From the NCBI GenBank assembly GCA_027008775.1, contig JALVDV010000009.1:1-48080 (forward strand): a DNA stretch of 48,080 nt, read 5' to 3'. The DNA comes from Candidatus Moraniibacteriota bacterium. Lineage in GTDB: Bacteria; Patescibacteriota; Minisyncoccia; Moranbacterales; DUUL01. Positions 25,451 to 31,237 of the stretch are shown here, piece by piece. The stretch's first letter is position 1; each line of letters opens with the position of its first letter. The translations under genes were made by a program, and so were the position numbers. Below the pieces are notes generated by a model that was not told the DNA's origin, made no database searches, and worked only from the letters and a program-made list of their open reading frames with translations.

Positions 25451-25911
25451 TTTTTATATACCTCCCAAAAAATTTTGATTTTTTATTGTCAATGAACACA
25501 AACTCTTTCATCTTTTTCAGATGAAAAAGTTGATTTAACTTCCCAAAGAAATTCGTTTCTTTGGGAAGTTAAACTAACATATGATTCCAGATAAAGCAAC
25601 AGAAAAAGTTGTGATTTGTTCCTAAGATACTGACTGTTTCCAGAACACCGGCCTACATCTTGGGCGACTCTGTTTTTTTATTATGATGTTATTGATAATT
25701 TCATAATAAAAAGCTCGAGCGATTTGTTGTTGACAATATAAGCAACCAACTTTGGACAGTTCATTTTTATTTATATTTATGAACAGCACAACAACTGCTC
25801 CATAAAATTTGTATCTTATTTAGTGCGCCTTGTTTGCGTAAATAGATCAATAATCAACTGGAAAGAGTATTATGATATTATTGATAATATCATAATACTT
25901 ACCCTATAAAC

Positions 25912-26015
25912 CCCCAGCATAGCTGGGGTGTATATTTGAAGGCATTTAACGTATGATAAAACCGTCCAGCCGGCAATTCGGCCGGCAGACTCTAAGCCAC
26001 CGGCAGAGCCGGTGG
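25912..26015. repeat. Cluster of three short GC-rich hairpins
   Basis: CCCCAGC-ata-GCTGGGG; GCCGGC-aattcg-GCCGGC; CCACCGGC-aga-GCCGGTGG in AT-rich surroundings. Confidence 0.75.
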
Positions 26016-26087
26016 TCGATTACTTTAGTGCTAGTTGAGAGATTTCGTTTTTATTTGCGAGTGCAAAAATATTTATTTGTAATCTTT

Positions 26088-26585
26088 TTAAAGCCTGATG
26101 AGTTTTAGTTTGCCACTATCAGTATCCCAAACAGCAAAAGTGGCGGGGTAACGAATATTAGCGACATTGCCGGGGTTTATTAATCGGCAATGACCAATTT
26201 TCTCCTCCCAAGGTTGATGGGTGTGTCCATAGAAGACCAGGTCGTATTTTCCGCTGACTGCCAATTCACGAGCTTTTTCCGGAAAATGAACAAAGGCAAC
26301 TTTATATCCATCAAATTCCGCTTCTCCTACGGAAGGGAATATTTTTAAATTTGTTCCGGCAAACTTTTCACTCAAATTTTTATAGTCCCAATAGCCGGCG
26401 TCCATATTGCCCGGCACCAACAAAATTTTGCCGGGAAAGTTGGTTTGCAAAAATTCCACAGTTTCCTCCGAAGCGGTATCTCCGCAACAGATGATTGTTT
26501 CAACACTCTCTTTTTGACAATAATCCAAAACTTTTTGCAAATTAGCCAGATTATCGTGAATGTCGGAAATAATTGCGATTTTCAT
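26088..26585 (-). CDS. YfcE/MJ0936-family metallophosphoesterase
   Basis: IAIISDIHDNLANL, CCGDTAS, VPGNMD, FYGHTHQP metal-binding motifs. Confidence 0.93.
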   Translation of the reverse strand: MKIAIISDIHDNLANLQKVLDYCQKESVETIICCGDTASEETVEFLQTNFPGKILLVPGNMDAGYWDYKNLSEKFAGTNLKIFPSVGEAEFDGYKVAFVHFPEKARELAVSGKYDLVFYGHTHQPWEEKIGHCRLINPGNVANIRYPATFAVWDTDSGKLKLIRL

Positions 26586-26975
26586 TTTTGTTTGAAAAAA
26601 TATTTACTTGAGAAAATGATTCTTGAAAATATTCTAAATAGAAATCAGCGGGCTCTTAAAAAACCACACAATCACCAACTCAAACACAATTACCGTCAAT
26701 AACTCAAAATACTATTATGATATTATCAATAATATCATAATGATTATATTCTCACCAATATATCGCCCGGCCTTGATAAACCGTATAATTGCAAGGGTGA
26801 TACGCAACATACTTTGTGAGCCTTGGAACTACTGCACTCCCCTTATTATGATATTATTGATAATATCATAATAACAAATTTTGCTTCGCCTGTATTGAGT
26901 GGCTATTATAAATGCTCCGTCCTTAGAAAGAGAGAGTTCTCGCTGGATTAAATTACGGCCGTGACTCTTCCAGTT

Positions 26976-27269
26976 TTAATTCTTTTCATTCAACAATTTT
27001 TCAAAAAAGTTCAACACCTTTTTCCCTCTGGGAGTGATTGTATGTAAAACTTCCATATTGGAATATTTTTTGTAAATGAAACCGGCCTTCTCCAGTTTTT
27101 GAATATGAGAAGCGGCTGTTTGATATTGAATCTTTACCTTGTCTGCAATTTTTTCAACGTTTAAGGCGGGAATTTTTTCAATCAAGATTAAAATTTTTAT
27201 TCGTTTTTTGTTGGCCAAAGCTTTGAAATAAATTTCCAATAGCTTTATTTGTTTCTCGCTGAAATTCAT
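26976..27269 (-). CDS. ArsR-like winged-helix transcriptional regulator
   Basis: 97 aa; FKALANKKRIKILILIEK...IADKVKIQYQTAASHIQKLEKAGFIYKK..TITPRGKKVL. Confidence 0.8.
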   Translation of the reverse strand: MNFSEKQIKLLEIYFKALANKKRIKILILIEKIPALNVEKIADKVKIQYQTAASHIQKLEKAGFIYKKYSNMEVLHTITPRGKKVLNFFEKLLNEKN

Positions 27270-27471
27270 ATTTTTCTTGTTTAAAATTTAACCCCTCCCC
27301 TATTATGATATTATCAATAATATCATAATAAAGCAAGTCCCCTTATAATAACGCCTTGTTTGTCAAACACATCGCAACCCGGGAAAACACTGAAGAGATA
27401 AGCAACTAAAATACTAAAAAAGCAAACAACTCTTGAGGTTTAATAAAAGGTACTATGTCAGTCGCTGTCTT

Positions 27472-28719
27472 TTATTGATTTTTTAAAATATTTTTTAACT
27501 CTTCTGTTTTTACAATTTGTCCTTCTTTGTTTGTCCGCTTTTTTAATTCTACCCCGCCGGCTTGCAGAGAGCGAGAAGAAACAACTAAACGCCAGGGAAA
27601 ACCGAGCAGATCGGCATCGGCGAATTTTTCCCCCGGCTTCTTGTCGGGACGGTCGTCCCAAAAAACTTCCACTCCTTCTTTGCGCAAATCTTGATAAATT
27701 TTTTCCGCTTCGTCTCCGGCATCAATATCAATCAAGTGAACTTGGAAAGGCGATACCTCCGCCGGCCAGACAATTCCCTTGTCGTCGGCAAAAACTTCCA
27801 CTATCGTCCCCAGCAAACGACTGATGCCGATTCCGTAACTGCCCATAAAAACAAAATGTTCTTTCCCGTTTTTATCTTTGAATTTCAAATCCAAGGGCTC
27901 GGAAAATTTTGTTCCCAGAGTAAAGATATTGCCGACTTCAATGGCCTTGGCTTCTTTCAGTTTATTTTTATTTTTGATACCTAATTCGGCCAATACCTCA
28001 TCGTTAAAAACCTCTCTGTTGACAGCCAAATTTTTTTCTTGGTCAATGTAAATAATGTCTTCACCCGCTTCGGAAAGAGTTTGAAATTCGTGAGAATATT
28101 TGGAAAAAGTTCCGCCACTGGCAAATGTTAAATATGTTAAATCACCCAGACCGACCCTGCGAAAAATGTTTTGGTAGGCCTTTTGGGCTTGTTCGTAAAA
28201 TTTATAATGCTCTTCTTCATTTTTGGAAAAGGAATAAAGAGCTTTCCAATAAAATTCTCGCCCGCGCATCAAACCGGACTTGGCGCGTTTTTCATTGCGA
28301 AACATGGTTCTGATATCGTAGGGATAGGCAGGTAAATCCCTGTGAGAAGAAATGAATGTTTTCATCAAATTGGTCATAGCTTCTTCGTGCGTAAAGGCCA
28401 AGCCCAAATCGGAACCGCTTTTGAGTTTGGTTTTAAACCAATTGTCAACCAATTCATCGTCCCAGCGATTAGTCTTTTCCCAATTAACTTTATTCTGCAG
28501 AACGGAATTTTTCATTTGTTGCCCGCCAATTTTATCCATCTCCTCTTTAATGATGGCGCTTATTTTTTCCAGAACGCGCAGGCCCAGGGGGAGCAATGAA
28601 TAGACTCCGGCCATTTCTTTGTAAACATAACCGGCGCGAATGAGCAGTTGAGCGTTGCGACTGACTTCATCTTTGGGGGCGAATTTTTGTGTTTTGGTAA
28701 ACAGTTCGGATTGTTTCAT
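27472..28719 (-). CDS. proS: Prolyl-tRNA synthetase, short form without an evident editing insertion
   Basis: LIRAGYVYKEMAGVYSLLPLGLRVLEKI, FTHEEAMTNL, RNEKRAKSGLMRGREFYWKALYSF class II motifs; 415 aa. Confidence 0.95.
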   Translation of the reverse strand: MKQSELFTKTQKFAPKDEVSRNAQLLIRAGYVYKEMAGVYSLLPLGLRVLEKISAIIKEEMDKIGGQQMKNSVLQNKVNWEKTNRWDDELVDNWFKTKLKSGSDLGLAFTHEEAMTNLMKTFISSHRDLPAYPYDIRTMFRNEKRAKSGLMRGREFYWKALYSFSKNEEEHYKFYEQAQKAYQNIFRRVGLGDLTYLTFASGGTFSKYSHEFQTLSEAGEDIIYIDQEKNLAVNREVFNDEVLAELGIKNKNKLKEAKAIEVGNIFTLGTKFSEPLDLKFKDKNGKEHFVFMGSYGIGISRLLGTIVEVFADDKGIVWPAEVSPFQVHLIDIDAGDEAEKIYQDLRKEGVEVFWDDRPDKKPGEKFADADLLGFPWRLVVSSRSLQAGGVELKKRTNKEGQIVKTEELKNILKNQ

Positions 28720-29763
28720 AAATTTGTTTTCTCTAAAAATTGTGATTTCCTATCTTAATTAAACACCAAAAAACCGATTGCGACAAGGGAGGAGAGAAGT
28801 CATTTACCGGCTTGAGATAAATTGCGAGGTTGTAATGTTAACTATGAATTACCATAAGCAATTAAAAAACGGGAACTGCGAATAATAAGCGATTATTCTT
28901 TGAATATTATGATATTATCAATAATATCATAATACCCATTTTTGGTTTTGATTATTTTCTTGGTCAATCTTTTTTAGATTATTGTCTTTTGACTGCAATC
29001 CTGGTTTAAATCTGAGTGATATTAAAATTAAAACAATGAAAAAAAGAAACAACAATGAGCTATAATAAGCTGGGAACAAAAATAGTTTATTTTACAGCTT
29101 ACAAATAGATATTGGGGATAATCGACAAAAGATAAACTGTCATTTTCAGATCAATTCAATCTGATTTTAAGTATTATGATATTATTGATAATTTCATAAT
29201 ACTATTGTTTTTTTGATAACTTGGAATTTCCCAGGATAAATTATATGTCCTGAGAATTAATGATGGGGTGACAACGACAAAGCAAAAATCTTAAAATTTT
29301 ATTTTCCGAATCGGGTGAACTTTTGTTATTATGATATTATTGATAATATCATAATACCTTTCTTTTAGCTGATTATTGTTCCCTGGTAAGTCACTGGTTC
29401 AAAGAATCATAAACGACAATTTGTCAGTTGGATTTCACTTTTGTCTATTATGATATTATCAATAATATCATAATAGCTTTTTTTGTTGGTCAGTTGGTGG
29501 GCTTGGAGAAAGCAAATAGAGGACAGATTATGATTTGCGAAATGGGTGATTTTATTCCTAGAAACAGGGCTTTTTGCCGGATTAAATATACGGGACAATT
29601 GATTTTTTCTTGTTGTGATATTGTTACAATTTATGACATCATTGTAATAGCAACCGTTCTTTCCGGAATTTACCGATTCCAAATGCATTATGAATACTGA
29701 AAAATTGGTCGTGAGTAGAAAACCGAGAGCTGTGAGTTGTTGTTCAGAAAATTAAATAAAGAG

Positions 29764-29783
29764 TTATCCACAGTTTTTCCACA
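29764..29783 (+). other. Two DnaA-box-like 9-mers
   Basis: TTATCCACA (29764-29772) matches the E. coli DnaA-box consensus; TTTTCCACA (29775-29783) is one mismatch away. Confidence 0.4.
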
Positions 29784-29792
29784 GTGACTTGT

Positions 29793-29820
29793 TTGACATT
29801 TTTTGAGAAGATTTTATAAT
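29793..29820 (+). promoter_or_regulatory. Consensus sigma-70-type promoter
   Basis: TTGACA (29793-29798), 16-nt spacer, TATAAT (29815-29820). Confidence 0.85.
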
Positions 29821-29872
29821 GAGAGTGCATCGTTGTTTATTGCGATGACAAAATGAAAAGGAGGAATTTTTT

Positions 29873-29950
29873 ATGAAACGGTTTTTTTTCAGTTCTTTTG
29901 AGATAGGTGTATCTGGCGCATACAGGCAGCAGACAGAGACCAGGCCATAA
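29873..29950 (+). CDS. 25-aa small ORF MKRFFFSSFEIGVSGAYRQQTETRP
   Basis: ATG at 29873, TAA at 29948-29950; AGGAGG (29859-29864) at 8-nt spacing. Confidence 0.5.
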   Translation: MKRFFFSSFEIGVSGAYRQQTETRP

Positions 29951-30081
29951 GATGCCAGAGCCCGGTAGGAGACGCGGACCATGCAGATAGTCTTTAGGAG
30001 GCCGCGGGACGGCCTCTAGCAAACACAAAGATAGCCTCTCTTGAGGTGTAAAAATAAAAAATCTCCGCAACACAACCACCA

Positions 30082-30119
30082 CCCCCAATCCTCTAACAGG
30101 ATTGGGGGCTTTTTCTTTT
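30082..30119 (+). terminator. Intrinsic terminator of the 29.8-30.1 kb transcript
   Basis: CCCCCAATCCT-ctaac-AGGATTGGGGG, 11-bp perfect stem followed by cTTTTTcTTTT. Confidence 0.92.
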
Positions 30120-31237
30120 GTGAGGGACAACTTATCAATTTAAAATTGACTTTTTTCAACAATTTATTCTTAAAAACTTAAATGACAAGATCTTTATTTC
30201 GCCTAAGTCTGTGGTCTTTAAATGTAGCTTTGAAAATTACTGCGAATCTCTTAAACGGAAACCAATTTGTTGATTCTCTTGTCCTCAGAAATACTTACAA
30301 CTCAGAAGATAAACAAATAATAATCCGTTTGGAAAAAAGTTAAAAAGATAGTGATATCTTGAGGAAGGGATAGTAAATCTAGCAAAAAGAGAGGCGTGAA
30401 CTGTGTCTAATCTATAAATTATGAACCGTAATGAATTGCAAATTATAAACCGGCTGAACTTTCTGTATTATGAAATTATCAATAATTTCATAATGCCTTT
30501 ATTTTCACCTCCACTGATACAGTGTTAAATTTGAGTAAATTATGATGAATAGGAAATTAGCTGTAAACGATAAATTAACTAGTTGTATTTTATGATTATG
30601 CCTTTTTTATTATGATATTATTGATAATATCATAATGCCCTTTTCTTTTTAGCGGAATATTGCCTTCAAATAAGTCTCGGCTAAAAAATCAGGGGTGATA
30701 ATTTGTCGGTCAGTTTTCACTTTTGTCTATTATGATATTATCAATAATATCATAATACTCTTTCATTTTTTTGTCAGTTACTCATCGGATTGCCAAATCA
30801 TTAAATTGGCAGAATTATTGCGAATTAAAAAATCCGGTACTTGAAGTCCGGTAAATAAATCAAAAACTTTAACTTTTTACCTAATTGCATTATTCCGTTT
30901 TGTAAATACTTGCAAAAAGTCTGATTCGCCCTTACCGGAAATCATCAGAATTAAATCAACGAACAGAATAGAAGTGACAGCTTATACCCCCGAAATATAC
31001 CCCCGAAATCTGACATATTGTGAGTGTTAGGATTTTCCGGTTTAATCTTAAAGACAAAGGCGGGGACACTTTTAGAAATATTGTTGTCAGAAATTGATTT
31101 TTGGTGTTTAATGGACAAGGGAAAACAGTTTGTGTAATTGTAATTCTGAGAAATATTGCCGACTTAGTTTGAGTCCGTACTTCGGTTTGTCTTTAGTCAA
31201 TTTTATATAAAGACTGCGCCTCTTTTCCGGAATTTGT

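Follow-up and report, generated by a model that had tools for sequence, protein, structure and literature searches.

Does a small winged-helix gene that lies within an array of palindromes encode the protein that binds them, and what would such an array control? The question is raised by a 48,080-nucleotide stretch of DNA from a Candidatus Moraniibacteriota bacterium (contig JALVDV010000009.1 of assembly GCA_027008775.1), hereafter the window, in which the gene for a 97-aa protein is surrounded by copies of a single inverted repeat. An initial annotation had proposed that this ArsR-like protein regulates itself through the palindrome, and that the copies constitute a local regulon linking lipid head-group synthesis, a phosphoesterase, ProRS and an RNA at 29.8 kb. 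Our analyses indicate that an autoregulated ArsR-fold regulator probably binds a 28-bp palindrome, the operators having multiplied to 44, and that the protein is probably a genome-wide regulator.

Pattern scanning recovered a perfect palindrome at 27301-27330, just ahead of the winged-helix start as first reported, and the five further copies that had been listed at 25679, 25868, 26713, 26844 and 28905 are all real; six more bring the total to 12 copies of ATTATGATATTAT-NN-ATAATATCATAAT (also written TATTATGATATTAT-NN-ATAATATCATAATA), all of them within 25679-30757, where 0 were expected from 100 shuffles. The regulator gene is bracketed by two of these copies, one upstream of its start codon and another beyond its stop. 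In the following list the gene is assigned from domain profiles and an AlphaFold model and the palindromes from the pattern scan, together with conserved placement in relatives for the copy at 27301-27330.

25679-25708, unstranded: palindrome, 2 mismatches
25868-25897, unstranded: palindrome, perfect
26713-26742, unstranded: palindrome, between the regulator and the phosphoesterase gene
26844-26873, unstranded: palindrome, perfect; downstream bracket, 103 nt after the regulator stop
26976-27269, minus strand: regulator gene P0001, 97-aa ArsR-fold winged helix, proposed palindrome-binding autoregulator
27301-27330, unstranded: palindrome, perfect; upstream bracket and proposed autoregulatory operator, 31 nt before the regulator start
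28905-28934, unstranded: palindrome, perfect; upstream of proS
29172-29201, unstranded: palindrome, 1 mismatch; non-coding region between proS and 31238
29327-29356, unstranded: palindrome, perfect; non-coding region
29446-29475, unstranded: palindrome, perfect; non-coding region
30466-30495, unstranded: palindrome, symmetric variant ATTATGAAATTAT in the arms
30608-30637, unstranded: palindrome, 1 outer-base mismatch
30728-30757, unstranded: palindrome, perfect

The repeat had been described as a 14-2-14 form, but its invariant core spans 28 bp (13-2-13), with the flanking T/A present in about 80% of half-sites. This core has the architecture 5-3-5-2-5-3-5, such that each half consists of two tandem pentamers 8 bp apart, and the central dinucleotide is CA/TG in 43 of the 44 copies in the genome.

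Those 44 copies were found when the whole genome (11 contigs, 929 kb, the window being contig 9) was scanned with up to 3 mismatches allowed, and they are distributed over 10 of the 11 contigs; the reversed pattern, used as a control, gave none. Although 12 copies fall within the 5 kb of the window (clustering P<0.0002), most lie elsewhere, beside unrelated genes; the array is thus not local, and the local regulon first proposed is not supported. Thirty-nine of the copies are clearly intergenic, against 81.5% coding in sampled DNA (P about 1e-23), and the remaining five are inside small, doubtful ORFs. Outside the window the copies are commonly paired 43-64 bp apart, and the distances between partners group around 4, 5 and 6 turns of the helix (P about 0.001 when compared with uniform spacings). 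Sampled stretches supplied the gene context, in which the neighbours of the sites include Clp ATPase, groEL, gyrB/dnaX, topA, priA, smpB, nusB and ribonucleotide reductase, as well as murG, a Mur ligase, an HtrA-type protease, a LysM-CHAP protein, comEC and a lamin-tail/PKD protein; no single pathway is obvious among them. Site density is highest in divergent intergenic regions, although only mildly so, and many sites are 100-700 bp from the nearest start codon. A promoter scan of the genome found no consistent spacing between site and promoter, and the notion that the operator lies just upstream of the -35 element in all targets was rejected on account of this irregularity. Patescibacteria/Paceibacterota drafts are the sequence relatives of this genome, and the origin region of this Patescibacterium is of the canonical ParB/parS kind: five perfect copies of parS (TGTTTCACGTGAAACA) lie close upstream of dnaA (L032 9623-10219, contig C6) and the ParB gene is on C10. 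It also contains a single Y1 transposase gene (G000:C1:127531-127896), about 0.5 kb from an integrase-core ORF with a palindrome beside it.

The protein bears out the ArsR-like assignment in its fold. Its Pfam MarR domain (PF01047) scores 34.7 bits against a cut-off of 24.6, the AlphaFold model (pLDDT 87) has ArsR topology, and the top Foldseek matches of that model are CzrA, HlyU, NolR and SmtB; an ArsR-like fold is supported by this predicted structure. The recognition helix comprises residues 49-61, YQTAASHIQKLEK. The NCBIfam profile HTH_metalloreg (NF033788, ArsR/SmtB) reaches 36.7 bits, below its cut-off of 55, and by this curated score the protein is not an ArsR/SmtB metalloregulator. 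It contains no cysteine and two histidines only (55 and 76), and neither an ELCVCD motif nor an alpha5 metal site was found; since cysteine is lacking, the classical metal site is absent, and the sequence does not support a classical ArsR metal sensor. Nor does the protein, at 97 aa and with an ArsR-like model topology, resemble a MarR-type chain of approximately 140 aa, in which N- and C-terminal helices make up a dimerisation domain. The other named genes of the window, encoding a CDP-alcohol phosphatidyltransferase, a calcineurin-like phosphoesterase and a class II tRNA synthetase (proS), were verified, and all are on the minus strand.

If protein and palindrome belong together, homologs in other genomes should co-occur with the same repeat, as the initial annotation had suggested checking, and they do so beside close orthologs in two genomes. 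Among the genomes of 84,980 species, the exact palindrome occurs in Patescibacteria drafts only, in seven genomes besides its own, and it is absent from the IMG/VR viral contigs that were also scanned. The genome of RS_9_47 has just two copies, and these flank the gene for a 94-aa ortholog, with one positioned 20 nt ahead of its start; in MM_PC_MetaG.mb.223 a single exact copy lies 13 nt past the gene for a 95-aa ortholog. Each ortholog shares 64% identity with the window protein and has an almost identical recognition helix. Their neighbours differ from proS and the phosphoesterase of the window, being transketolase-like and MnmA-like genes (named by inspection of translations), and so it is the regulator and its palindrome that stay together. 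MM_PC_MetaG.mb.223 has two further close paralogs, each flanked left and right by a palindrome of its own, ATTAT-GTT-ATTAT-GC-ATAAT-AAC-ATAAT and ATTAT-ACG-ATTAT-AT-ATAAT-CGT-ATAAT, in which the triplet is GTT or ACG in place of GAT; a GTT-type member in RS_5_36 is bracketed likewise. Six of the other genomes have 1-8 copies each and, where a close ortholog is present, the copies are at its gene.

An array in a genome without the regulator would count against this association, and on paper there is one such case. S145_42 (G002) has 15 copies, yet its only family member is of a different type with palindromes of its own. This draft is 91% complete in 90 contigs, several sites are less than 1 kb from contig ends, and a GAT-type regulator, being small and flanked by repeats, could be missing from the assembly. 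G059 has two GAT-type sites, but the close regulator found there is GTT-type only, and G061 and G062 are smaller cases that count against a reading with one regulator.

The association extends well beyond close orthologs. A search of the phylum separated the family, at 89 bits or more, from generic winged-helix proteins at 63 bits or fewer, and distant members (28-38% identity, from other families and classes of the phylum) have 28-bp palindromes beside their genes with the same 5-3-5-2-5-3-5 architecture in other letters, among them ATTCT-CAC-ATTCT, ATTCA-AAC-ATTCA and ATCCT-TAA-ATACT. Among 38 members, and with looser criteria for weak palindromes that were set after the family had been seen, a palindrome is upstream in 30, downstream in 30, on both sides in 25 and on either side in 35, compared with 5%, 4%, 0% and 9% for 1,280 pseudo-gene placements at the same loci. 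Under a strict rule the figures are 28/38 for either side and 15/38 for both, against 2.7% and 0% for pseudo-genes. The window gene itself has a tandem-pentamer palindrome on both sides. Of 12 members not previously seen, six have at least 12 of 13 paired bases near the gene and 10 are positive under a rule that adds the tandem signature; generic winged-helix controls have a palindrome in 4/17 and the full tandem signature in 0/17. Three of the 38 members have no qualifying palindrome beside them, namely the C6 paralog in the same genome, L138 and L141. The nearest relative of this C6 paralog (L115 / G000:C6:65205-65468) is the S145_42 member, which is bracketed by ATACAACTATTCA-type palindromes. 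In the same order, ArsR genes of the ordinary kind, which encode a CVC metal motif (L069, L070, L072), have a different upstream palindrome, for example ATATATCAATATGTATTGATATAT.

Operator letters track the protein clade, through the ATTAT, ATTCT and ATTCA types. When 384 genomes of the class were scanned for the ATTAT scaffold, only the genome of the window matched, and the ATTCT scaffold is present in 12 of 57 relatives; each variant thus has a narrow distribution. The seven ATTAT-type members all fall in a single supported clade and have Gln or Ser at residue 50, the second residue of the recognition helix, and all 22 members with Lys50 have C at pentamer position 4. Contacts of Gln with A, and of Lys with G on the other strand, are chemically sensible, and we hypothesize from these sequences that the pairing of residue 50 with base 4 may be a specificity determinant. 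As an independent specificity code it was rejected, there being about three changes on the tree, confounded with phylogeny.

Because close orthologs have the palindrome adjoining them and letter variants stand beside distant members, a cognate and autoregulated relationship is supported, and the 97-aa protein is very probably the self-regulating binder of the palindrome. The proposal of autoregulation thereby holds very probably, on the strength of gene-palindrome co-occurrence across the family, with binding itself predicted. Autoregulation is common in the ArsR/SmtB family. From the palindromes, their bracketing, architecture and constraint, and their co-inheritance with the protein, we infer that protein dimers bind the 28-bp operator; the tandem pentamers, two to a half and spaced 8 bp apart, point to a pair of dimers on the 28 bp, which would make four protein contacts at each operator. 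The gene would be controlled through its two bracketing copies, most likely by repression when protein binds just upstream, and bracketing or paired sites may permit cooperative binding or looping. With the other 42 sites, among them those near distant genes, the protein becomes a candidate global regulator or architectural factor.

How the sites multiplied is indicated by the sequences between them. Two site pairs at distant loci have related spacers (z = 6.4 and 5.1); in the L022/L024 copies the spacers are 71% identical and all four palindromes are identical. With spacer identity down to about 70% but no divergence of those four palindromes, the palindromes are constrained, and by this comparison paired units have been copied within the genome and their palindromes held constant since. 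A promoter region belonging to a family of exported proteins likewise retains the palindrome both in this genome and in S145_42, which is of another genus. In S145_42 the family has a fixed layout: a strong TTGACA promoter follows the site at a distance of 60-85 bp, an arrangement that would fit activation, or else an architectural role, in that genome. The paralogs (L035 3086-3865, L041, L043, L044, L047, L051) are conserved at the N-terminus, MNKRNLIIGIVVLVALVGG..., and divergent in their C-terminal parts; the promoter block AAAATTTTGTTTTTGAA...TTTGA..AAAATTTTGATTGA, with the palindrome before it, is common to most of them, and they are arrayed in S145_42. It is conceivable, though we think it unlikely, that palindrome, gene and palindrome together are a self-propagating cassette, in which the regulator would bind the repeats that frame it so that the unit and loose operators are copied round the genome, and that what relatives have as a two-site autoregulatory module grew in this manner, in this lineage, to a network of 44 sites, either a regulon or a nucleoid scaffold. 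If that were true, the paralog-specific letters of the palindromes would record how new protein-DNA specificities evolved repeatedly in a single family.

Copying also recalls mobile REP/REPIN-like repeats, which would be spread by a transposase with the winged-helix gene incidental or riding along. Like these, the palindromes are short, intergenic, often paired and numerous, and the related spacers of pairs at distant loci show that units were copied; the Y1 transposase at C1:127531, of the IS200/TnpA-REP superfamily, lies between sites 2.7 and 1.6 kb away, and an integrase-core gene adjoins one site. REP elements carry a conserved unpaired GTAG or CGTC tag and are found mostly downstream of genes, between tandem or convergent ORFs (PMC3733652). 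The repeat in the window has no such tag, the bases next to its perfect dyad vary, and divergent regions are where it is densest, unlike REPs. It appears tied to a winged-helix gene and not to a cognate RAYT, a Y1 transposase flanked by the repeat; it is scarce in the six genomes with few copies, where it keeps to the gene of the close ortholog if there is one, and variant palindromes track variant regulators. We regard a purely mobile origin as quite improbable; copying of units and operator function are compatible and not exclusive. Serine-recombinase crossover sites, with two symmetric arms about a non-palindromic central dinucleotide, would account for the nearly uniform CA/TG centre, but no resolvase/invertase (PF00239) was found in the genome and related genomes have GA, GC, AT and other centres, on which grounds this extremely improbable candidate was rejected.

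The dense cluster in the window raises the further prospect of a centromere or nucleoid organiser that nucleates at the 12 sites and then spreads or bridges between sites. AspA, a small winged-helix segregation protein of the archaeal plasmid pNOB8, spreads after binding a 23-bp palindrome that lies upstream of the aspA gene itself (PMC5120986). It is among the nearest solved (PDB) structures to the 97-aa protein by both sequence and fold, and the two are alike in having a palindrome upstream of the gene (with binding predicted here); twelve sites in 5 kb, helically phased pairs and the many sites far from start codons would also accord with such a role. AspA, however, is encoded with parB-parA, and the window has no such operon, with no ParA- or ParB-like gene found adjoining the regulator; the genome has a chromosomal ParB and parS beside dnaA, separate from this locus, and in other genomes a close ortholog may have just one or two sites, situated at its own gene. 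We consider an AspA-like organiser improbable. Still less can be said for canonical parS or replication-origin repeats, a very improbable identification to which the cluster and a pair of DnaA-box-like sites at 29764/29775 might point. The palindrome is not the parS sequence, of which the five perfect copies stand together with dnaA on C6, and the window has two isolated DnaA boxes only and no clear skew switch, with dnaA on another contig; both the parS and the origin interpretation were rejected.

An autoregulated ArsR-fold regulator with multiplied operators, the reading preferred here, has its nearest counterparts in the ArsR/SmtB repressors CzrA, SmtB, NolR and HlyU, with which the protein shares its size, the order alpha1-alpha4, wing and alpha5, and, a short way upstream of the predicted regulated gene, a long inverted repeat whose centre is 2 bp. 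ArsR operators are imperfect 12-2-12 inverted repeats (PMC8790569), whereas the operator here, a repeat of that general kind, is a near-perfect 13-2-13 of tandem pentamers with different spacing. The protein also departs from that family in its lack of cysteine or an ELCVC-type metal site, and in having operators that flank the gene on both sides and are present in 44 genomic copies. What sets it apart from known autoregulated ArsR-fold regulators is the bracketing by tandem-pentamer operators and the amplification of the operator within its own genome. We found no experimentally defined Patescibacteria regulon or operator in the open-access literature. The family offers approximately three dozen predicted protein-operator pairs that are open to in vitro testing with no need to culture the hosts, with controls built in among them (ATTAT-type against ATTCT-type operators), and it provides a natural series both for the joint change in specificity of a transcription factor and its operator and for the way in which an operator multiplies within a reduced genome, here from 2 copies to 44.

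Other features of the window deserve brief description. The RNA at 29.8 kb corresponds to an unannotated, transcript-like unit at 29796-30115 (plus strand) with a perfect TTGACA-16-TATAAT promoter, GGAGG, a 25-codon ORF (MKRFFFSSFEIGVSGAYRQQTETRP), GC-rich stems and a strong terminator; an Rfam search returned no significant family match. Just upstream of its promoter, at 29764-29783 (plus strand), are the two DnaA-box-like sites, 11 bp apart (TTATCCACA, TTTTCCACA). Upstream of the CDP-alcohol phosphatidyltransferase gene, at 25529-25578, there is an inverted repeat that is unrelated to the palindrome family, with 23-nt arms that are 91% complementary and a 4-nt loop.
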